A stretch of DNA of 20,655 bases from a virus, in the IMG/VR virus record IMGVR_UViG_3300047316_000450, positions 1-20,655 of that record. One strand, given 5' to 3'. A model generated the notes under the pieces. That model did no database searches. It was given only the letters and a program-made list of their open reading frames with translations, and was not told where the DNA came from. Position numbers and translations under genes: made by a program. Of this stretch, positions 8,238 through 15,804 are shown piece by piece (position 1 is the first letter of the stretch; each line of letters starts with the position of its first letter).

Positions 8238-8281
8238 TCATCCAAACAGCTTGACAATCGTGGCACCGAGCGCGAAGCCGG
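8238..8281 (-). repeat. 44-bp direct repeat, source copy
   Basis: This is the 3' end of the membrane-protein gene, including its TGA stop. It is identical to 7915-7958. Confidence 0.85.
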
Positions 8282-9240: not shown

Positions 9241-9282
9241 TGATCTGTCCTCGCTTGTTGCGGGCGCCCGCCAAGGCCGCCC
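9241..9282 (-). promoter_or_regulatory. Cassette leader: UUGGCG-loop hairpin and AGCGAGGAC site
   Basis: On the minus strand a 7-bp hairpin with one bulged G spans 9282-9262, with loop UUGGCG. It is followed by CAACAAGCGAGGACAGATCA and ATG 9240. Hairpin loop and ribosome-binding stretch match the other cassette leaders. Confidence 0.6.
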
Positions 9283-9305
9283 CGGTTCCGGTAATATTGC
9301 GCACA

Positions 9306-9319: not shown

Positions 9320-9408
9320 AAGAGCGGCGGCCTCTGTTAATGTTTAATCATTCCGTCCGCCGGGCCGGCTGCTTCGGTCCTCGCGGCAGCCTAGCCCGCG
9401 GAAGGATA

Positions 9409-9439
9409 GGGCCGGCCGGGACGCCAATCCCGCCGGCCC
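9409..9439 (-). other. Orphan UUGGCG-loop hairpin after a stop codon
   Basis: Ten bases after the stop of the gene at 9450, the minus strand forms a GC-rich hairpin (CGGGA, loop UUGGCG, UCCCG at 9432-9417, extended by flanking GCCGG pairing). There is no U-run, so it is a poor intrinsic terminator. Downstream lies a GCGAGGACCGAAG stretch and a four-codon frame (ATG near 9349). It looks like a cassette leader whose gene has been lost. Confidence 0.5.
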
Positions 9440-9449
9440 GCCCCGCCGT

Positions 9450-9764
9450 TTACCAGACTTGCCACCAATTTTTGTCGGATACGGGTGGCTTCAGGCAATC
9501 CGCTATTGATGGCTTGGCAACGCGCTCGACGTAATCGGCCGGAAGTTTTCCGTTTGCGATGAAGTATGTGCCGTCCTCCATCGTGCTCCGGTTGGCGGCG
9601 GCGAGGACGTAACAACTGCAATAAGCGTTGTTGTTGTTCATTCCCGCCAGACAAGTTGCCATTGCCTCCTTTATAAAGGCGAGCGTGTTCGCCTGGTCCA
9701 GCGGGGTCGCATGCGCCGCAACAGGCAACAGCAGCGTGCTTGCAAGCAATAATCGTTTCATCAT
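9450..9764 (-). CDS. Exported small cysteine-containing protein
   Basis: This is a 104-residue protein with a Sec signal peptide (MMKRLLLASTLLLPVAAHA, AHA cleavage site). The mature domain contains four cysteines (TCLAGM, YCSCYVL, ADCLKP), probably forming disulphides in the periplasm, with NRSTMEDGTYF between. I do not recognise the family. The start is ATG 9764 or the adjacent ATG 9761; AAGGACC upstream is the variant ribosome-binding stretch of this cassette. Hammerhead ribozyme 1 lies just upstream, so this would be the first gene on the 3' cleavage product. Confidence 0.7.
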   Translation of the reverse strand: MMKRLLLASTLLLPVAAHATPLDQANTLAFIKEAMATCLAGMNNNNAYCSCYVLAAANRSTMEDGTYFIANGKLPADYVERVAKPSIADCLKPPVSDKNWWQVW

Positions 9765-9800
9765 GTTCGTTGGTCCTTGCTATGTGCCGCGCCATGCGGC
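9765..9800 (-). promoter_or_regulatory. Cassette leader: AUGGC-loop hairpin and AGCAAGGAC site
   Basis: A 5-bp hairpin (GCCGC, loop AUGGC, GCGGC, 9800-9786) is followed by ACATAGCAAGGACCAACGAA and ATG 9764. This is the pentaloop variant of the UGGC-loop leader family. Confidence 0.55.
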
Positions 9801-9813
9801 GGTTGGGTCTACT

Positions 9814-9870
9814 GGACTCATCAGCTGCCGCGTCACGGCAGGACGGGGAGATCAGTTCCCCGTTTCGTCC
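9814..9870 (-). ncRNA. Type II hammerhead ribozyme 1
   Basis: Read on the minus strand 5' to 3': GGAC (stem II), GAA, stem III (ACGGGGA pairing with UCCCCGU, 7-base loop), C as the cleavage nucleotide at 9842, stem I (CUGCCG, loop UGACG, CGGCAG), then CUGAUGA and GUCC (stem II). Every conserved core position is present: CUGANGA, GAA followed by the A15.1-U16.1 pair, and H17 = C. Stem II is the open stem, giving the type II topology. Predicted cleavage falls between 9842 and 9841. The 5' strand overlaps the last codons of the gene at 9852, whose stop lies in the stem III loop. Confidence 0.92.
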
Positions 9871-10037
9871 TTGTGGTCGCGAGCCTCCAGCCAGGCCCGC
9901 TCGAGCCGCGCGATCATGACAGCGGCGCGGTGGCATAGGTCGGCGGTGGTGGAAGAGCGTCCCGGGTGCGCCTCGGTCAGCTCGCGCGAGATGGCCTCAA
10001 CCTCGGCCTGCGTCGGTGGGCCTTGATCTGTTTTCAT
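9852..10037 (-). CDS. Small helical protein of unknown function
   Basis: This is a 61-residue protein, mostly helical and charged (QAEVEAISRELTEAH, TADLCHRAAVMIARLERAWL). ATG 10037 overlaps the upstream stop as ATGA, so it is translationally coupled as the third gene of its cassette. Its last codons (KDETG) are at the same time the GGAC-GAA-A strand of hammerhead ribozyme 1, and the TGA falls in the stem III loop. Codons here are therefore constrained by RNA function. I do not recognise the family. Confidence 0.65.
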   Translation of the reverse strand: MKTDQGPPTQAEVEAISRELTEAHPGRSSTTADLCHRAAVMIARLERAWLEARDHKDETGN

Positions 10038-10237
10038 GATCGCACCGCCATCAACAGCACAAGCGGCCCGGCGCCACCGCCAACCCAATAGCGGCCGGCC
10101 TTGGTCAACTCAGAAAGAGCATGGAAGTATTCAGGGTCACGATGCTCTGCAGCGTCTGGGAAGCAGTCGCGCAAATCACATTGACCGCGCAATGTTTCGT
10201 TGTCGTTGTTGTCGTAATCGTAAATCTTTACCATCAT
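10034..10237 (-). CDS. Small acidic protein of unknown function
   Basis: This is a 67-residue protein, acidic at the N-terminus (VKIYDYDNNDNETLRGQCDL, then RDCFPDA), with a Gly-rich hydrophobic end (YWVGGGAGPLVLLMAV). Two cysteines are seven residues apart. ATGs at 10237 and 10234 are both possible; the first overlaps the upstream stop. It is the middle gene of a three-gene coupled set (10461 to 9852) bounded by hammerhead ribozymes 2 and 1. No family is recognised. Confidence 0.6.
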   Translation of the reverse strand: MMVKIYDYDNNDNETLRGQCDLRDCFPDAAEHRDPEYFHALSELTKAGRYWVGGGAGPLVLLMAVRS

Positions 10238-10461
10238 GACACACCTCCCGGCGTCACCACGCGCACAAGCTCGCGGCTGTTGGCGCCGGCAACCGTAAAA
10301 TTGCGGATGACGTACAGCGGCGAGTAGGGGTTGAGATTGAATATCAGTAGCGTCTTGCCGGTGCGGTCCGCGTCTTGCTGCGCCAGCGCAATGATTCGAT
10401 CGAGCTTGGTTACTTTGTCGTGCGCGCGGTCTATGTGCTTCAATTCAGATTTGCTAGGCAT
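10234..10461 (-). CDS. Small protein of unknown function
   Basis: This is a 75-residue protein. A basic helix at the N-terminus (SELKHIDRAHDKVTKLDRII, ALAQQDADR) is followed by a beta-rich part (LLIFNLNPYSPLYVIRNFTV, RELVRVV). ATG 10461 is chosen over a longer frame to 10491 because TGCGAGGACGAGGACA, the conserved ribosome-binding stretch, precedes it and the longer frame would run toward ribozyme 2. It would be the first gene on the 3' product of ribozyme 2 cleavage. The function is not recognised. Confidence 0.65.
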   Translation of the reverse strand: MPSKSELKHIDRAHDKVTKLDRIIALAQQDADRTGKTLLIFNLNPYSPLYVIRNFTVAGANSRELVRVVTPGGVS

Positions 10462-10477
10462 TGTCCTCGTCCTCGCA
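10462..10477 (-). promoter_or_regulatory. Conserved cassette ribosome-binding stretch (no hairpin)
   Basis: TGCGAGGACGAGGACA directly precedes ATG 10461. It matches the AGCGAGGACGA consensus, but here no UGGC-loop hairpin precedes it; ribozyme 2 ends 16 bases upstream. Confidence 0.6.
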
Positions 10478-10493
10478 TTGAGCTGGGTCATCT

Positions 10494-10553
10494 GGACTCG
10501 TCAGGCGCCGCATCACGGCGCGACCGGGCACAACAAAGTGCCCGGTTTCGTCC
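10494..10553 (-). ncRNA. Type II hammerhead ribozyme 2
   Basis: Minus strand 5' to 3': GGAC directly after a TAA stop, GAA, a 9-bp stem III (ACCGGGCAC pairing with GUGCCCGGU, loop UUUGUU), C17 at 10522, stem I (GCGCCG, loop UGAUG, CGGCGC), CUGACGA and GUCC. Compared with copy 1, the two outermost stem I pairs changed in compensation (CU/AG to GC/GC), as did stem III, while the core stays intact. Position 7 is C, which the core tolerates. Cleavage is predicted between 10522 and 10521. Confidence 0.93.
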
Positions 10554-11015
10554 TTATGCCGCCGATCGACCGCGATCTATCCCCCAGGGCGCGGTCTCGT
10601 AATCGGGCAAGCCGCGGATTGCCGCCGCGCGGATTGCCGCAATTATCCGGTGCGCGACCGTCTGCCTATAATCGTCGGTCTCGCAAGCCTGATAGTCGAA
10701 GCAATCGCAATTCTTGATTACCCAAACGCAGCGCTTCGTGTGCTGCATGTGGACGAACGGCTCGAAATACCGGAACGCATAGGCGCTCGCGTCCTCACCG
10801 ATCTTGCCCGGCATGTTGCCAGGCCCACAATCCGGGTAACGATGGCAGACCGAGCGCTCGTTCTCCGCTAGTAGAACGCGGCCGATGTCGGTCCAATCAA
10901 ACAATCCAGCCTTGCTAGGCTGGATAAAATAGCCGAGCTGGTCTTTCATCCGCTTGTCCTTAGCAAACGAAAGCAGCGCGTCGATATGGTCGTGGGAGAC
11001 TACGAAAGCAGACAT
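10554..11015 (-). CDS. Conserved phage protein of unknown function (SAFVVSHDHIDAL type)
   Basis: This is a 153-residue protein. The opening MSAFVVSHDHIDALLSFAKD resembles an N-terminus I recall from many phage and prophage hypothetical proteins, where it is followed as here by an ENERSVCHRYPD segment. Residues about 95-130 contain VWVIKNCDCFDYQACET and YRQTVAHRIIAAI. No catalytic motif is clear. ATG 11015 follows a UUGGCG-loop hairpin and CAGCGAGGACGAAG. The TAA stop abuts stem II of hammerhead ribozyme 2. A host-takeover role would fit the accessory location but is not shown. Confidence 0.75.
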   Translation of the reverse strand: MSAFVVSHDHIDALLSFAKDKRMKDQLGYFIQPSKAGLFDWTDIGRVLLAENERSVCHRYPDCGPGNMPGKIGEDASAYAFRYFEPFVHMQHTKRCVWVIKNCDCFDYQACETDDYRQTVAHRIIAAIRAAAIRGLPDYETAPWGIDRGRSAA

Positions 11016-11056
11016 GGTTCTTCGTCCTCGCTGTGCTTCCCTCTCGCCAAAGAGGG
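11016..11056 (-). promoter_or_regulatory. Cassette leader: UUGGCG-loop hairpin and AGCGAGGACGA site
   Basis: A perfect 6-bp hairpin (CCCUCU, loop UUGGCG, AGAGGG, 11056-11039) is followed by AGCACAGCGAGGACGAAGAA and ATG 11015. Confidence 0.65.
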
Positions 11057-11116
11057 CCGGCTTGATTGCCGCCGATAGGCGCCCGCAATGGAGCGCCCAT
11101 CAACTGCAATCACGCC
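11057..11116 (-). ncRNA. Candidate structured RNA element E, copy 1
   Basis: Minus strand, starting right after the stop of the gene at 11117: outer pairing GAUUGC (11111-11106) with GCAAUC (11069-11064), and an inner 8-bp stem AUGGGCGC with GCGCCUAU around loop UCCAUUGCGG. An alternative CGGC/GCCG pairing near the 3' end would exclude the outer stem. Copy 2 at 11688-11744 keeps the architecture with different stem bases. I cannot match it to hammerhead, twister, pistol, hatchet or twister-sister from memory. Confidence 0.45.
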
Positions 11117-11644
11117 TTACGCTACCTGCCGTGCTTCGCTGGCATCGCGCGCATAGCTCTCAGCATTTGGAACCCCGCGACACATGCGAGCGGAATTGGC
11201 CGGCGTGATCGATATATCCAGTTCCCAGCGCGCAATGACCTTGCCCTCGCGCCGAACGTCCAAGTAGAGCGCATCGGCATGTAACCCGCCCATCGCGACA
11301 TATCCGTTCGTGTGGGCGTCCGGATAAAATCGGAATGTGATCTCGTCATCGGCGCGCAATGTCTTGAGGATGCACGACGCGCTAGTATGCTGCGAGTGAT
11401 AGACACCGATCATCGCAAAGCATTGCACGTCGCCGGCTTTCATCGCTTCGCGCCCGCGCGAGGTATCAATCTCCACCTTAGCCGTGACATTGTGCTCTAT
11501 GTCCGTCGCAAACGGATCGGGGTTGCCATAACCCTTGCGCTTGATCGCGCGCACCAGGCCGTCCGGGCTCTTGCTGTTCAGATGCACGCAAATGTCGTCG
11601 CACTTGCGCAATGCAGTAATGTCGAGCTTCGTTAAGGTAGTCAT
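11117..11644 (-). CDS. Protein of unknown function
   Basis: This is a 175-residue protein, mixed alpha/beta, with no motif I can name. Notable stretches are a helical start (LTKLDITALRKCDDICVHLN), then VTAKVEIDTSRGREAM, an EITFRFYPDAHTNGY segment and a beta-rich KVIARWELDISITP. ATG 11644 is chosen because the conserved leader (UUGGCG hairpin, AAGCGAGGACGAACG) ends directly at it; the frame extended to 11740 would translate the leader and element E. It sits between two E elements rather than ribozymes. Confidence 0.7.
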   Translation of the reverse strand: MTTLTKLDITALRKCDDICVHLNSKSPDGLVRAIKRKGYGNPDPFATDIEHNVTAKVEIDTSRGREAMKAGDVQCFAMIGVYHSQHTSASCILKTLRADDEITFRFYPDAHTNGYVAMGGLHADALYLDVRREGKVIARWELDISITPANSARMCRGVPNAESYARDASEARQVA

Positions 11645-11687
11645 CGTTCGTCCTCGCTTATGTTGTTGGACATCCGCCAAGATGTCC
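11645..11687 (-). promoter_or_regulatory. Cassette leader: UUGGCG-loop hairpin and AGCGAGGACGA site
   Basis: A perfect 7-bp hairpin (GGACAUC, loop UUGGCG, GAUGUCC, 11687-11668) is followed by AACAACATAAGCGAGGACGA and ATG 11644. Confidence 0.65.
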
Positions 11688-11744
11688 CGGCATGATCGCC
11701 GACCATGCCGCCCCCATGGAGCGGCATGCGCTGCAATCAATCCG
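11688..11744 (-). ncRNA. Candidate structured RNA element E, copy 2
   Basis: It starts right after the stop of the gene at 11745. The outer pairing is GAUUGC (11738-11733) with GCGAUC (11699-11694, one U-G wobble). The inner 8-bp stem is CAUGCCGC with GCGGCAUG around loop UCCAUGGGG. Compared with copy 1, the inner stem sequence changed while pairing was kept, and UCCAU in the loop and GAUUGCAG at the start are conserved. It occupies the place ribozymes hold in other cassettes. Confidence 0.45.
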
Positions 11745-11909
11745 TTATTTGAAATCCGCCATAATTGCGGTAATGGCGTCGTTTATTCGATACATAAGAG
11801 CCGATAATTTTTCGTCTTTTGGCAATAGCGGCAGCCATTCAAATGCCGCTATGACAGCATGTGTTGCATCGTCGCAAGCATCATCAAATTTGTCTTCTTG
11901 ATTAATCAT
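11745..11909 (-). CDS. Small acidic helical protein of unknown function
   Basis: This is a 54-residue acidic helical protein (QEDKFDDACDDATHAVIAAF, EKLSALMYRINDAITAIM). It has no recognised domain, signal or membrane span. ATG 11909 follows the cassette leader (hairpin, CATAGCGAGGACGAAGACT). It is the first gene downstream of hammerhead ribozyme 3. The standard leader is the main evidence that it is expressed. Confidence 0.65.
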   Translation of the reverse strand: MINQEDKFDDACDDATHAVIAAFEWLPLLPKDEKLSALMYRINDAITAIMADFK

Positions 11910-11953
11910 AGTCTTCGTCCTCGCTATGTTGTCGGACACTCGCCAAAGCGCCC
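11910..11953 (-). promoter_or_regulatory. Cassette leader: UUGGCG-loop hairpin and AGCGAGGACGA site
   Basis: A 7-bp hairpin with two G-U pairs (GGGCGCU, loop UUGGCG, AGUGUCC, 11953-11934) is followed by GACAACATAGCGAGGACGAA and ATG 11909. Confidence 0.6.
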
Positions 11954-11967
11954 TGGTTCGTTCGTCT

Positions 11968-12019
11968 GGTCTCGTCAGTGACGGCCTAACCGCCAGACGG
12001 CCCTGGGGCCGTTTCGACC
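11968..12019 (-). ncRNA. Type II hammerhead ribozyme 3
   Basis: Minus strand 5' to 3': GGUC, GAA, stem III (ACGGCC pairing with GGCCGU, loop CCAG), C17 at 11996, stem I (UGGCGG, loop UUAGG, CCGUCA with one G-U pair), CUGACGA and GACC. Stem II is GGUC/GACC here against GGAC/GUCC in the other copies, a compensated base-pair change that strongly supports real pairing. It begins three bases after the TGA of the gene at 12023. Cleavage is predicted between 11996 and 11995. Confidence 0.92.
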
Positions 12020-12022
12020 TGT

Positions 12023-12211
12023 TCAGTAGTTGGTGACCCAGTCGCAGCCGTGAAGCTTGGCGAGCACCTCTGCGCGACGCTCCGCTTTGACCCTGCGGCC
12101 TTTGCCAGAGAAATGGCTGTCCGCTTCCAAGCTGTCATCCTCGAAGAGGACATCAACCGTGAAATCATCGCCATTGTCAGAACATTGAATGGTGCGGGCC
12201 TTGCTGATCAT
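12023..12211 (-). CDS. Small protein of unknown function
   Basis: This is a 62-residue protein with a beta-rich acidic first half (ARTIQCSDNGDDFTVDVLFE, DDSLEADSHF) and a basic helix (RRVKAERRAEVLAKLHGCDW). I do not recognise it. ATG 12211 overlaps the stop of the gene at 12208 as ATGA and has GAGG seven bases upstream, deciding it over the longer frame to 12280. Its TGA lies three bases before hammerhead ribozyme 3. Confidence 0.65.
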   Translation of the reverse strand: MISKARTIQCSDNGDDFTVDVLFEDDSLEADSHFSGKGRRVKAERRAEVLAKLHGCDWVTNY

Positions 12212-12378
12212 GATTGCACCTCGCAAGCGCATGCGAGAGTGTAGAGCAAACCCTTGCTGCAGTAGTTGACGAGAAACCATTGCTCGGCATCAAAGCTCGA
12301 TGAGCATCCTCGCGGTGCCAGCATGTAACCTTCATGGTAGTCCCGGCCGTGGTAACAAAAAGCTATCCTAAAGCGCAT
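12208..12378 (-). CDS. Small protein of unknown function (56 residues)
   Basis: This short frame reads MRFRIAFCYHGRDYHEGYML, then residues to YTLACACEVQS, with five cysteines in all and many aromatic residues. Support comes from both ends: a UGGC-loop hairpin and AAAGCGAGGATCAGGACA lead directly into ATG 12378, and its TGA overlaps the next ATG as ATGA. No family is recognised. The cysteines might bind a metal, but their spacing fits no named finger. Confidence 0.6.
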   Translation of the reverse strand: MRFRIAFCYHGRDYHEGYMLAPRGCSSSFDAEQWFLVNYCSKGLLYTLACACEVQS

Positions 12379-12427
12379 TGTCCTGATCCTCGCTTTGCGC
12401 CCGAGCCATTCGGGCTTGCAATCAACA
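12379..12427 (-). promoter_or_regulatory. Cassette leader with AUGGC-loop hairpin and an element-E-like start
   Basis: UUGAUUGCA (12425-12417), as at the start of element E, is followed by a 6-bp hairpin (GCCCGA, loop AUGGC, UCGGGC, 12415-12399), then GCAAAGCGAGGATCAGGACA and ATG 12378. Confidence 0.55.
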
Positions 12428-12472
12428 ATCTATCAAACAAACACAAATGCACAACCGTAAAGATTGGCACAT

Positions 12473-12485
12473 ATCCGCACATTTC
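12473..12485 (+). repeat. 13-bp direct repeat flanking HNH gene, left copy
   Basis: ATCCGCACATTTC, one base from the HNH stop. The identical sequence is at 12908-12920 on the other side of the gene. Confidence 0.6.
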
Positions 12486-12486
12486 G

Positions 12487-12876
12487 TCATTTTGGACGCG
12501 CTGCGAATTTGCCACTCGCGCGGGGCTGCCCAATGTAGCCATGAGCGGATTTATTCACACAGTTCTGTGAATGATTACACTCTCGTAGGTTACTCCATCG
12601 ATTGTCATCACGAATCCGGTTGATGTGATCTAGTTCAGGATCAGGGTCGCGCCCGGTTACCATTTTCCAGATGATGCGATGTACGCGATATTCCTCATAT
12701 TCAATTGTAACGCTGCGATAGCCCCAACGCTTGCTACGCCACCCAGCTTCCATGCCAGGCCGAATGCGAGGCCCGCGGATTCTCCAGGTGAGCAAGCCGG
12801 TTTCCTTGTCATAGTCGAATAGAATTCGCAGCAAGGAAGCCGGCGGCAAAGGAAGCATCTTCCCATTCCATGTCAT
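12487..12876 (-). CDS. HNH homing-type endonuclease
   Basis: This is a 129-residue protein. The N-terminal NUMOD4-like region (LLRILFDYDKETGLLTWRIR) is followed by a beta-beta-alpha-metal HNH fold: YRVHRIIWKMVTG (His66), LDHINR (Asp83-His84), DDNRWSNLREC (Asn92) and NHSQN (His102). This spacing is that of free-standing phage HNH endonucleases. Many relatives continue into an AP2-type DNA-binding repeat; here only HGYIGQPRASGKFAARP remains before the stop, so the C-terminus looks shortened. ATG 12876 is chosen because the family's usual N-terminus starts there. It lies between 13-bp direct repeats, which fits a mobile insertion. Confidence 0.88.
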   Translation of the reverse strand: MTWNGKMLPLPPASLLRILFDYDKETGLLTWRIRGPRIRPGMEAGWRSKRWGYRSVTIEYEEYRVHRIIWKMVTGRDPDPELDHINRIRDDNRWSNLRECNHSQNCVNKSAHGYIGQPRASGKFAARPK

Positions 12877-13207
12877 GATCAGATTATATCCCAGATTAAC
12901 CGGAAAGATCCGCACATTTCCGCACACGAACAAGAAAGATTGTTGCGTAGGGCCGCTCTCGATTTGTGCCATCGCGCCGGCGGGCCGGGAAAAGTCCGTG
13001 GTTCCGGGTGGGTTACGGAGGAGGGATTTGCTTAACATGAGCAAAAGTCCGTTCCGCCTTGGCGAAGGACAATCCGCGCGGTGCGCACTGCACGCGTGAG
13101 GGCCGCGAGCGCCTAAGCCCGCTGATATCATTGCATTGTGATAGTGGGGTGTGCTGGGATCGATGCCTGGAGTATAGTTCTAGACCCTCTACGACCAGCG
13201 GCGGGCC
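12877..13207. other. Intergenic region without a supported gene
   Basis: Open frames on both strands here lack family-like composition and ribosome-binding sites. The minus strand has TATAAT (around 12885-12890) just before the HNH start, but no convincing -35 box. Apart from the right-hand 13-bp repeat I see nothing further. Confidence 0.5.
12908..12920 (+). repeat. 13-bp direct repeat flanking HNH gene, right copy
   Basis: Identical to 12473-12485. It lies 31 bases upstream of the HNH start. Confidence 0.6.
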
Positions 13208-13537
13208 TCAATCTCCCCCGTCTTTAACGGGAGTTTTTCGGATGAATGCTCCGGGGGCTACTTCCTTGCCCCGGGCGCCGTGGAATGGATTTGTCCCCAT
13301 CCTATACGGCCATAACGGGCAACGGACAGCCGTACAGCGCCGGACCTCGGATTGCTGGTAGCAGCAGCAATCTAGGCATTTCGCCCGGATAACCGCCATA
13401 ATCGAACGCTTTTGATGCGCTTGCCCTAGGACTTCAAGCGCCAGGTCGTCCGGATGCCGGCCTTCCGTCGAGCCGTCCGAATGCCGGACGATGAAGGCTT
13501 CTGATAACGAATTCGGTCCAATATCATCGATGGGCAT
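13208..13537 (-). CDS. Cysteine-cluster (zinc-ribbon-like) phage protein
   Basis: This is a 109-residue protein. The N-terminal half is acidic (MPIDDIGPNSLSEAFIVRHS). Residues 47-85 hold the diagnostic segment AKCLDCCCYQQSEVRRCTAV, then RCPLWPYRMGTNPF, with cysteines at 54, 57, 58, 59, 68 and 73. The pattern CxxC-x10-C-x4-CPLWPYRxG recurs in rhizobial and other proteobacterial phages and prophages, as I recall it, and suggests zinc binding. ATG 13537 has a strong GGAGGT site five to six bases upstream; the longer frame to 13759 is low-complexity shadow. It is the first gene downstream of the long regulatory region and could be an early regulator. Confidence 0.75.
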   Translation of the reverse strand: MPIDDIGPNSLSEAFIVRHSDGSTEGRHPDDLALEVLGQAHQKRSIMAVIRAKCLDCCCYQQSEVRRCTAVRCPLWPYRMGTNPFHGARGKEVAPGAFIRKTPVKDGGD

Positions 13538-13901
13538 GGTGACCTCCAATCCAGGTTGCTTTGCCAAGTGGCCGGGCGGCGCCTTCAACGCCGCTCGGCT
13601 GCGCCTATGGTAGCACAGCTCGCGCCAACGAACATCCTCGCACCCCCACGCGCAATTTTGTTGCGGAGAGCTGCGCTTTCCTTCCAGCTCGATCCCGATC
13701 GCCGCCGCCCCGGTACACCCCCCGCCGCCCCGGGGGGACGCTGGCCAGGCCACCCCCATCGATCTTCTATCTCAGTGCCCCTGAAATATCTGGGCGCTGT
13801 TTTCCCATTACAACCGTTAGTATAGAATTCGGCTATGGTTCGCCTTGTTGGTTTTAGAACTTTGATTTTGGGTTTCCCCTATATAGGACTAGACCTTGTC
13901 C

Positions 13902-14094
13902 TGTCCCAAAACCGCTCCCCTGCCGGGTATGGATTCCGGCGTGGGCGTTGGGACAAGAGTTGTCCCAGGCTTTTTTGTTGTTTTACGGTAGCTTGGTTGA
14001 TTTTGGGACAAATGGGACAAAACGGCTGTCCCAATATAAAAAAAGCGTAAAAAACCCGAAAAGTTTGCTTGGTTTTGGGACACAACCTGTCCCA
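13902..14094. repeat. TGGGACA/TGTCCCA motif array
   Basis: The 7-base motif occurs eight times in both orientations: 13902-13908, 13949-13955, 13961-13967, 14004-14010, 14013-14019, 14027-14033, 14076-14082 and 14088-14094. The pair at 13949-13967 is a perfect 8-bp inverted repeat around GAG, followed by GGC and six T (also a possible plus-strand terminator). The pair at 14076-14094 is a 7-bp inverted repeat with a 5-base spacer. Confidence 0.7.
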
Positions 14095-14170
14095 GATTGT
14101 GACAGCCAAGAAGTGGGGGTGATTTTGGGGTTTTGGCGGGCTTGAGGCGAGGCGCTGGGTCAGCGGCGCT

Positions 14171-14195
14171 GCCGGGAGGGTAGGCACCTCCCGGC
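14171..14195. repeat. 9-bp perfect inverted repeat
   Basis: GCCGGGAGG (14171-14179) and CCTCCCGGC (14187-14195) surround a 7-base loop. There is no U-run on either strand, so it is either a factor-dependent stop or an RNA/DNA structure downstream of the ATPase gene. Confidence 0.5.
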
Positions 14196-14230
14196 GCGAT
14201 GAGCGGCCGTGCCGTGTCCGCCAAGAGGGG

Positions 14231-14261
14231 AGAGACCACGATGATATGGATCGTGATCTCT
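14231..14261. repeat. Operator-like dyad
   Basis: AGAGA and CACGAT pair with ATCGTG and TCTCT around GATATGG, with a small mismatch between the two blocks. Size and symmetry fit a repressor site; no supporting promoter was identified. Confidence 0.4.
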
Positions 14262-14379
14262 ATAACCATCAGAAAGCACCGCGCACGACTGACCATCAAA
14301 GTGCGGTGGTTCTGACGCGAAGCCGGGGGGGCGGGTTAGGGCTCGCCCCTCCACCCCGGAATCTAGGACGACCGGCCGC

Positions 14380-15804
14380 TTAGAACAAGTTCTTTTGGCC
14401 ACCGGTATTCTGTTGCCGGTTGAAGCGGAGGACGGCTTGGCGGGCGGCGTCTTTGCCTTCGTCGGTGAGGTGCCACTTATTACGGAGTTTGGTTGTTAAT
14501 TTAGGCTTCTTCTTTTCGAGGTCATTGACGAGGCGCTCGACCTTTTTCCGGTAGGCTTCGCCGCTTTCGGAGACCCATCCGAGATCGCTTGCCCAGTTGG
14601 CGAATGATCCGCCGTGGTCGGCGGGCATATTGAGCATGGCGGCCAACACCCGGTCTTCGTCTTCCTCGGCCTTGTCGGTATGCTGTTCTTCCTCGCGCTG
14701 GGAGATGGGGACGGCGCGCACGGTGGTGATTTGCCTGCCTTTTTGGTCGACGAGGGCTGGGGATTTGATGGGCTCGAGCTTGAAGGACATGGCTTGGAAG
14801 CCGGGGCCGCGGATTTTGTTGTAGTGGAGTTCGACCACGTCGTCGGTGGTTCTAGCGAGGGTGAGGTTGCCGTCCATTTCGGCGAGATATGCGCCGCCGC
14901 CGCGGGGGAGGAGTTGGGAAGGGTCGGTGACGTATTTGATGGGGTGGCACAACACGAGGACGCAGGGTTGGCCCGGCAACGTCGTGAGCCTTCGAAGCGT
15001 CCTGGCGTAGGCGCCCATCTGGGTATTGCTGAGTTCCTCGTTGCCCAAAAAATACGCCGCGCTGGTATCGACGATGATGAGGCTGAATTCGCCCACGACC
15101 TTGCCGTCGGCCTCGATTGTGGGCCACATCTGCTCGATGTCGAAGACGCCGGGGAGGAAGTAGATGGTGTCCTTGTCGGGGTTGTCGTTTCGGAAGCTGT
15201 TGGCGCCGATGACGCGCATGCGGATATCGTCGGGGTTTTCGCCGACGAAGTAGAGGACGCGGCCTTTTTCGAGGCGGTGGGAACCGAACATGGCGTTGCG
15301 GTCGAGGCAGGCGACGCGCTCGGCGAGGTGGAGGGCGACGGCGGTCTTGGCGTGGCCGGTCTGGCCGGTCAGGGCGTAGATGAAGCGGCGCTGCAGGATG
15401 CCTTCGACCAGGTAGTCGGGCGGGATGAAGCCCAGGATGAATTCGGCCTGGCTGAGGACTTTGCGGGGCGCGGCCGCGGTCTTGGGGCCGGAGGGTTTGT
15501 GGCCCCCCTTGGTGGGGCCGTTGCTGCCTGGTGGGGGCGGCCGCTGGACCCCGGCGAAAGCGGCCGCGATCCGGGTCTGCAGCGCGTCCTCGCCCAACGC
15601 AGCGACCAGCCCGTGGGCCTGCGCCATCTCGTAGAGGGCATCGATTGCCGTGGCCATGGGGAGGCCGCCCGCGACGTAGCCGGCGGCGTCCTTGGCGGCC
15701 TCGTCGAAGACCGTGGCGCGCGCCTCGAGGTCGCCCTCGCCCAGGCTGGCCAGCACCGCCCGCCAGTTCGCCAAACCTTCCCGGAAGCGATCGTCGATGG
15801 TCAT
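14380..15804 (-). CDS. RecA-like replicative ATPase/helicase (RepA/AAA_25 type)
   Basis: This is a 474-residue protein. Residues 1-85 are helical, 86-115 form a Pro/Gly/Lys linker, and the ATPase core begins near 120. Walker A is G147QTGHAKT154, Walker B is LIIVD (242-246) and a VLVLCHPIK strand follows, as in RepA/DnaB-like hexameric helicases and related AAA_25 proteins. Residues about 385-450 look like a winged helix (WASDLGWVSESGEAYRKKVE, then KLRNKWHLTDEGKDA). Its likely role is unwinding or helicase loading during phage replication. ATG 15804 overlaps the stop of the methyltransferase gene as ATGA; the longer frame to 16305 is shadow. It is the last gene of the replication operon. Confidence 0.88.
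   Translation of the reverse strand: MTIDDRFREGLANWRAVLASLGEGDLEARATVFDEAAKDAAGYVAGGLPMATAIDALYEMAQAHGLVAALGEDALQTRIAAAFAGVQRPPPPGSNGPTKGGHKPSGPKTAAAPRKVLSQAEFILGFIPPDYLVEGILQRRFIYALTGQTGHAKTAVALHLAERVACLDRNAMFGSHRLEKGRVLYFVGENPDDIRMRVIGANSFRNDNPDKDTIYFLPGVFDIEQMWPTIEADGKVVGEFSLIIVDTSAAYFLGNEELSNTQMGAYARTLRRLTTLPGQPCVLVLCHPIKYVTDPSQLLPRGGGAYLAEMDGNLTLARTTDDVVELHYNKIRGPGFQAMSFKLEPIKSPALVDQKGRQITTVRAVPISQREEEQHTDKAEEDEDRVLAAMLNMPADHGGSFANWASDLGWVSESGEAYRKKVERLVNDLEKKKPKLTTKLRNKWHLTDEGKDAARQAVLRFNRQQNTGGQKNLF

Follow-up and report, generated by a model that had tools for sequence, protein, structure and literature searches.

Hammerhead ribozymes, type II hammerheads included, are found in clusters around prophage genes. 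In the sections of Perreault et al. 2011 (PMC3088659) drawn on here, the proposed role of these arrays is the processing of long phage transcripts into operon- or gene-length messenger RNAs (mRNAs). Transcripts of approximately 2 kilobases (kb) from three arrays were cleaved, and a triple array of Agrobacterium was cut in vitro and in E. coli. In the part of a 2017 review consulted (PMC6155905), the role of prokaryotic hammerheads is an open question. The DNA analyzed here is the 20,655-base viral record IMGVR_UViG_3300047316_000450 of IMG/VR (positions 1 to 20,655, referred to as the window), which contains terminase, portal-like, DNA methyltransferase, and HNH genes. It carries three type II hammerheads on the coding (minus) strand, in gaps between small accessory genes arranged in a leftward series. 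The hammerheads themselves are known in kind. Judged from sequence comparison, the array appears to be set apart by a conserved, seemingly undescribed joint with two hairpins that is shared between differing genes.

The locus resembles the arrays covered in those sections of PMC3088659 in that several hammerheads are located on the coding strand around a few genes whose identity is inconstant. It differs in that most ribozymes here lack the pseudoknot between loop I and the 3' tail, and most are then followed by a hairpin, termed hairpin B. A further feature, beyond what those sections report, is that the joint from stop codon to start codon is alike between different genes. The loop I-tail pseudoknot has been reported for the majority of type II hammerheads but not for all, and is not defining.

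A second precedent is the Start-Associated Sequences (SAS) of Cluster K mycobacteriophages. In the portion of PMC3203893 used here, these are 13-bp asymmetric GGGATAGGAGCCC sequences located 3-7 base pairs (bp) before start codons. An inverted repeat, ESAS, is upstream of about half of them, and the authors found little support for RNA pairing. The present system is similar in being a start-codon repeat among non-structural phage genes that is common to different gene families. Unlike ESAS as described there, the hairpin here preserves pairing while its stem letters change, has a nearly constant loop, and is joined to a ribozyme. The SAS GGGATAGGAGCCC was not seen when the leaders of this phage group were read, which have GCGAGGA and a variable-stem hairpin instead; no dedicated search for it was run.

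The three hammerheads are as follows.

11968..12019, minus strand: hammerhead 1, stem II GGUC/GACC, predicted cut 11996/11995, 3 nucleotides (nt) past the stop codon of the frame ending at 12023.
10494..10553, minus strand: hammerhead 2, stem II GGAC/GUCC, predicted cut 10522/10521, directly past the stop codon of frame 11015-10554, without hairpin B.
9814..9870, minus strand: hammerhead 3, stem II GGAC/GUCC, predicted cut 9842/9841, overlapping the end of frame 10037-9852.

An independent scan recovered the coordinates, minus strand, core, stems, and type II topology given in the initial annotation. The cleavage positions predicted by the scan coincide with the 5'-OH ends named there (11995, 10521, and 9841), and the gene blocks listed there (12378-12023, 11909-10554, 10461-9852, and 9764 onward) are open reading frames. 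The core is CUGACGA in hammerheads 1 and 2 and CUGAUGA in hammerhead 3, with GAA, then the A15.1-U16.1 pair, and C at the cleavage site in all three. Stem III is 6, 9, and 7 bp in hammerheads 1, 2, and 3. Stem I is always 6 bp, with loops UUAGG, UGAUG, and UGACG, within which folding adds a U-G pair. Stems I and III are closed by loops and stem II is open in each of the three. The preceding stop codons end 3 nt before to 19 nt inside the ribozymes. That of frame 10037-9852 is inside the stem III loop of hammerhead 3 (TGA in the window, TAA in two relatives), so a ribosome finishing this frame must open the ribozyme. The overlap of hammerhead 3 with this frame had been overlooked, as had two extra hairpin families and the larger joint.

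By their sequence, the three elements are type II hammerheads, as first read. This identity is supported by the core, the stems, a covariance model built for this work, shuffled controls, and covariation. Across 300 dinucleotide shuffles of the window, both strands, there were no strict hammerhead matches and one loose match. Covariance model R1 was built from 16 hammerheads of other viral contigs, picked from a set of 123 that shares no sequence with the 20 ribozymes of this phage group (drawn from 12 loci). It scores the three hammerheads at 64.1, 60.7, and 59.6 bits (E 1.5e-22 to 7.8e-21), and the next-best place in the window at 14.2 bits (E 0.004). A chance origin was rejected by the zero strict matches and these E-values. 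The three-stem fold is the minimum-energy structure of each segment folded alone (z -1.54, -4.56, and -3.07), although for hammerhead 1 the folding energy is unremarkable by itself.

Relatives were found via two array genes (9 and 11 loci) and via the joint pattern. A search of 18 related records in full found one to four hammerheads in 16 and the terminase in 15. When 23 distinct ribozymes were aligned to the model, 99.7% of cells were paired, compared with at most 47.4% in slid controls. Both sides have changed in 10 of the 16 stem pairs, and the covariation score is 0.515 versus at most 0.129 with the partner slid; the underlying alignment was model-fitted, and one of its rows is weak (L260, 15 bits). 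The scan's own pair tables are biased because the scan demands pairing.

The conserved joint runs in this order: stop codon, hammerhead or a long hairpin termed element A, hairpin B, the ribosome-binding site GCGAGGA, and start codon. Around the first hammerhead of nine non-identical loci, the window included, blastp distinguishes six upstream and seven downstream protein families. The nine-locus set drops L253, L268, L271, L278, and L281 as copies, and the family count drops L268, L271, and L278. Pairs of loci whose upstream families differ have a mean identity of 0.25 over positions 20 to 6 nt left of the ribozyme and 0.38 over the final 5 nt before it, rising to 0.98 across the first 12 nt of the ribozyme. 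For pairs whose downstream families differ, the mean is 0.90 across the ribozyme's last 28 nt and falls to 0.27 in the 6 nt preceding the start codon and to 0.28 beyond that codon.

The same profile is seen in six loci fetched by proteins alone, from which L277, L279, and L280 are omitted as fetched by the joint pattern. Their values are 0.23, 0.39, and 0.97 on the upstream side and 0.92, 0.24, and 0.33 on the downstream side. In these loci, identity with gaps allowed is 0.85 between the end of the hammerhead and the ribosome-binding site. In the nine-locus set, identity is 0.48-0.50 for the hairpin B stretch, a value lowered by comparison without gaps, and 0.63-0.64 for the 10-nt tail. Because the ribosome-binding site was found there by its own sequence, its identity of 1.00 is uninformative. 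The sharp fall in identity on both sides of the joint is no product of selection by the scan. In these related phages, the ribozyme is constant between different genes, with sharp boundaries at the stop and start codons. This separates a ribozyme that serves a particular gene from one that serves the joint, and makes the latter directly testable.

The joint also includes hairpin B, which has a loop of UGGC or AUGGC and is mostly 5 to 10 nt ahead of GCGAGGA and a start codon. Its sites in the window, together with one ribosome-binding site, are as follows.

12399..12415, minus strand: hairpin B, loop AUGGC, before the ribosome-binding site of frame 12378-12208.
11934..11953, minus strand: hairpin B, UGGC loop, before frame 11909-11745, downstream of hammerhead 1.
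11918..11924, minus strand: GCGAGGA ribosome-binding site of the joint behind hammerhead 1.
11668..11687, minus strand: hairpin B, UGGC loop, before frame 11644-11117, downstream of element A copy 1.
11039..11056, minus strand: hairpin B, UGGC loop, before frame 11015-10554, downstream of element A copy 2.
9786..9800, minus strand: hairpin B, loop AUGGC, before frame 9764-9450, downstream of hammerhead 3.
9262..9283, minus strand: B-like bulged hairpin, UUGGCG loop, before frame 9240-8890, seen by eye and uncounted by the scan.

Single copies of hairpin B have a folding energy that is unremarkable against shuffles, and the reality of the hairpin therefore rests on comparison. The comparison covers 59 distinct leaders, each with this type of ribosome-binding site and a reading frame open for 40 codons or more. 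UGGC is present at most 30 nt upstream in 45 of the 59. A stem of at least 5 bp encloses it in 37 of these 45; for other UGGC in these loci, the count is 57 of 1894. The hairpin in one row of the 37 (L280, TTGCG stem) is probably a chance match. Six loci that were not fetched by the joint pattern give 28 of 32 versus 32 of 1108. The stem letters vary with pairing kept, and the loop is nearly constant. Within 110 nt after the hammerhead, hairpin B and the ribosome-binding site follow 19 of 22 ribozymes in 10 loci of the group, including the first and third in the window. B-like sites number 2 to 7 in each of 12 group loci versus 2 in 1.07 megabases of other hammerhead loci.

Pattern searches delimit the joint further. 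The combination of hammerhead and hairpin B matched 15 stretches in viral contigs, some of them in contigs already found by proteins, and had no match in genome contigs. The leader pattern TTGGCG...GCGAGGAC had at least 120 matches in viral contigs; among the matches listed, only L097 and L110 looked real.

Element A occurs twice in the window.

11693..11739, minus strand: element A copy 1, a long hairpin 5 nt after the stop codon of frame 11909-11745, in the slot held elsewhere by a hammerhead.
11063..11112, minus strand: element A copy 2, a long hairpin 4 nt after the stop codon of frame 11644-11117.

The hairpin has 16 to 21 bp. Its outer parts are nearly constant (UGAUUGCAG in seven of eight sequences, then CGGCRAUC), and its inner stem covaries, with five pairs changed on both sides among the eight. 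A pattern search gave 12 matches, real only in four related contigs. RNase III processing hairpins lie between early genes of T7-like phages. Element A is like these in being an intergenic hairpin, here in the slot of a cutting element; unlike theirs, its cleavage is only hypothetical. Rfam listed no family over elements A and B at E up to 1. In the open-licence literature on phage hammerheads, hairpin leaders, and Bradyrhizobium hammerheads, as far as its text was available, no description of either element was found.

It is likely, on the sequence comparisons above, that the joint cuts the long mRNA, gives any gene its own mRNA ends and ribosome-binding site, and tolerates the exchange of gene cassettes. 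Each hammerhead would fold in the nascent polycistronic RNA and, as expected from its family, cleave itself immediately 3' of the C at the end of stem III. The upstream mRNA would then end in the stem III hairpin with a 2',3'-cyclic phosphate, and the downstream mRNA would start with the 5'-OH stem I hairpin, because stem III is last on the upstream fragment and stem I first on the downstream one. The upstream coding sequence would be undamaged by the cut since the ribozyme is usually directly behind the stop codon. The two hairpins may cap the new ends, making a cassette independent of its neighbors, and the joint would be the shared stretch at which cassettes are gained and lost.

The absence of terminator-like sites from the gaps fits this reading. 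On the minus strand of 9400-12400, no gap holds such a site, and the two listed are both inside frame 11015-10554. Over 9400-14400 on both strands, six were found versus 5.0 expected. Intrinsic terminators between the genes were rejected on the empty gaps of 9400-12400.

A more specific form of this reading can be put forward only tentatively. Hammerhead, hairpin B, and ribosome-binding site would form a ribozyme-insulated cassette joint of approximately 110 nt, for which element A would be an interchangeable left half cut by a protein. For an incoming gene, self-cleavage on the left would supply the mRNA ends, and the right side would supply the translation signal.

Several observations weigh against the processing joint. 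Hairpin B is absent behind hammerhead 2 and from 3 of the 22 group hammerheads, and other hammerhead phages do without it, so it is unnecessary for the ribozymes as such. For hammerheads 1 and 2, an alternative leader fold is more stable than the hammerhead fold by 1.6 and 1.3 kcal/mol, respectively; in a relative, the difference reaches 7.4 kcal/mol for one ribozyme. The pseudoknot between loop I and the 3' tail (at least four pairs with the first 8 nt of the tail) is possible in 3 of 20 group ribozymes, against a shuffled control of 5%. The hammerheads of other contigs give 23 of 123 with a control of 15.7%, which is no clear excess. With no general pseudoknot, fast cleavage would need another contact. 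One ribozyme in the relative L273 (4628-4679) has CCGATGA for the CUGAUGA core and still scores 56.5 bits. It is probably a dead copy, judging by that change, and the ribozyme may thus be dispensable at some sites. Part of the joint's identity is due to selection, since the core is demanded by the scan and three of the nine loci were fetched by pattern. The flanking proteins come from mechanically called reading frames, and homology between proteins this small may escape blastp. Exchange at the joint is deduced from present-day sequences. Apart from this balance, L273 4628-4679 is of interest as a natural core mutant.

Among other explanations, a regulated switch is unlikely. The terminating ribosome would cover the 5' part of the ribozyme, and cutting would occur only when the upstream gene is poorly translated. 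The ribosome footprint at a stop codon would reach this 5' part, and the window's stop codons, at 3 nt before to 19 nt inside the ribozymes, are within that reach. Simple processing behind a gene would need the same distance. Moreover, no conserved alternative leader structure was found, and five of the eight first ribozymes lack an energy gap. The idea of a conserved off-state came from the whole-leader fold of ribozyme 1, where the tail pairs with the cleavage site of this ribozyme. It was dropped because L266 has no pairing tail and because of the same five of eight.

There is little probability that the hammerheads are a by-product, i.e., that they cut but persist only as parts of a recombination-prone island with no selected role in expression. 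The neighboring genes are indeed inconstant, here and in the arrays treated in the cited sections of PMC3088659, and a changed-core ribozyme has been retained in one relative. Against this, core and pairing are kept while the stem letters change, and the ribozymes of other viral contigs commonly stand right behind a stop codon too. Both points argue for selection on the ribozyme.

That placement was surveyed in viral loci fetched with a hammerhead pattern that fixes stem II as GGAC/GUCC. There are at least 119 such loci, and the survey is thus a sample. Placement was scored on all 119 with 14 duplicate ribozymes dropped, and some other scan counts were made on 80 loci. Among the matches listed, the scan found at least one hammerhead in 114 of the 119 loci and at least two in 37, always on one strand and up to nine per locus. 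A sense stop codon ends 12 nt before to 3 nt inside the start of 134 of 190 distinct hammerheads, compared with 455 of 9500 random places. A position right behind a stop codon is common among these ribozymes. The initial annotation had called three hammerheads in about 2.2 kb striking; by this survey, such an array is ordinary. Its statement that type II hammerheads are known in bacteria and phages agrees with the prophage arrays described in the cited part of PMC3088659.

RNA circles or splicing, in which the ends of a segment between two hammerheads re-form stem II and are rejoined, are highly improbable. Stem II of hammerheads 2 and 3 is mutually compatible (GGAC/GUCC), and in every relative in which the scan detected hammerhead 1, its stem II is GGUC/GACC. 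This kinship may be mere descent, and spliced or circular products were sought in the arrays of PMC3088659 and none was detected, as stated in the sections drawn on.

Chance or inactive look-alikes are scarcely credible, since RF02276 (Hammerhead_II), which lists one of the three and puts none at its cut-off, passes few comparable ribozymes elsewhere (2/30 and 0/26), and shuffles, model R1, and covariation in relatives all speak against them.

The Rfam family had been named in the initial annotation as a check, and the outcome fell short of it. RF02276 lists only 11960-12019, at 35.4 bits (E 5.9e-4), below the gathering score of 37, which is a curator's cut-off and no property of the ribozyme. 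The other two hammerheads are unlisted at E 1. The window's ribozymes share with the family the core, the open stem II, and the helix order. They differ in a stem II of 4 bp, in mostly having no pseudoknot, and in scoring below the cut-off. Of the 26 hammerheads that the scan finds in six loci (five other viruses and one relative), nine appear in the RF02276 output at E up to 0.5, and none reaches the cut-off. In 17 further viral loci, 2 of 30 scan-found hammerheads reach it. The 23 loci tested thus give 2 of 56, and hammerheads of this subtype (4-bp stem II, no clear loop I-tail excess) are under-called by RF02276. The number of such ribozymes in phages is therefore probably underestimated. 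RF02276 was rejected as the sole test on the counts of 2/30 and 0/26. Among the surveyed loci L134-L252, the ribozymes are mostly under the Rfam cut-off in the 22 of these loci that were tested.

The host is probably a rhizobial alphaproteobacterium, as suggested by the nearest terminases. In genome contigs, these are two Bradyrhizobium loci (54%); among annotated phages, terminase similarity is highest for four Rhizobium phages (47.6%). The pattern scan finds no type II hammerhead in the two Bradyrhizobium loci. With model R1, none was seen among the best 150 of more than 7000 first-look candidates per Bradyrhizobium genome, which is a weak negative. In the 26.7 kb examined of one Rhizobium phage, neither scan nor model R1 finds one, and the ribozyme array has no match among annotated phages.

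The small genes around the ribozymes have no Pfam match in 10 of 10 cases, and a PHROG search of the array genes gave two weak matches of unknown function. By eye, frames 9764-9450 and 9240-8890 both have a signal-peptide-like N-terminal stretch, with no Pfam or PHROG match. Frames 8890-8684 and 8453-8238 are paralogue-like (44% over part). A 44-nt exact repeat at 7915-7958 and 8238-8281, 323 nt apart, spans the end of frame 8453-8238.

A weak match to PtaRNA1, an antisense RNA family, is present at 13531-13606 (plus strand) in the window and at 5586-5661 (minus strand) in L270, with 28.5 and 29.1 bits against a cut-off of 47. It may be a chance match inherited by the window and this relative. 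Several copies of GGGACA/TGTCCC are seen by eye at approximately 13940-14110 (minus strand), in AT-rich DNA beside the helicase-like gene 15804-14380. This stretch looks like an operator or replication control region, and one copy is terminator-like on the plus strand. Repeats resembling TGTGCGGAAA at 12420-12500 and 12900-12930 (minus strand), upstream of the array, are possible regulator sites or a promoter region. Similar repeats are present in relatives, upstream of the p5 homologue inside the array of L273 and upstream of the array in L279.

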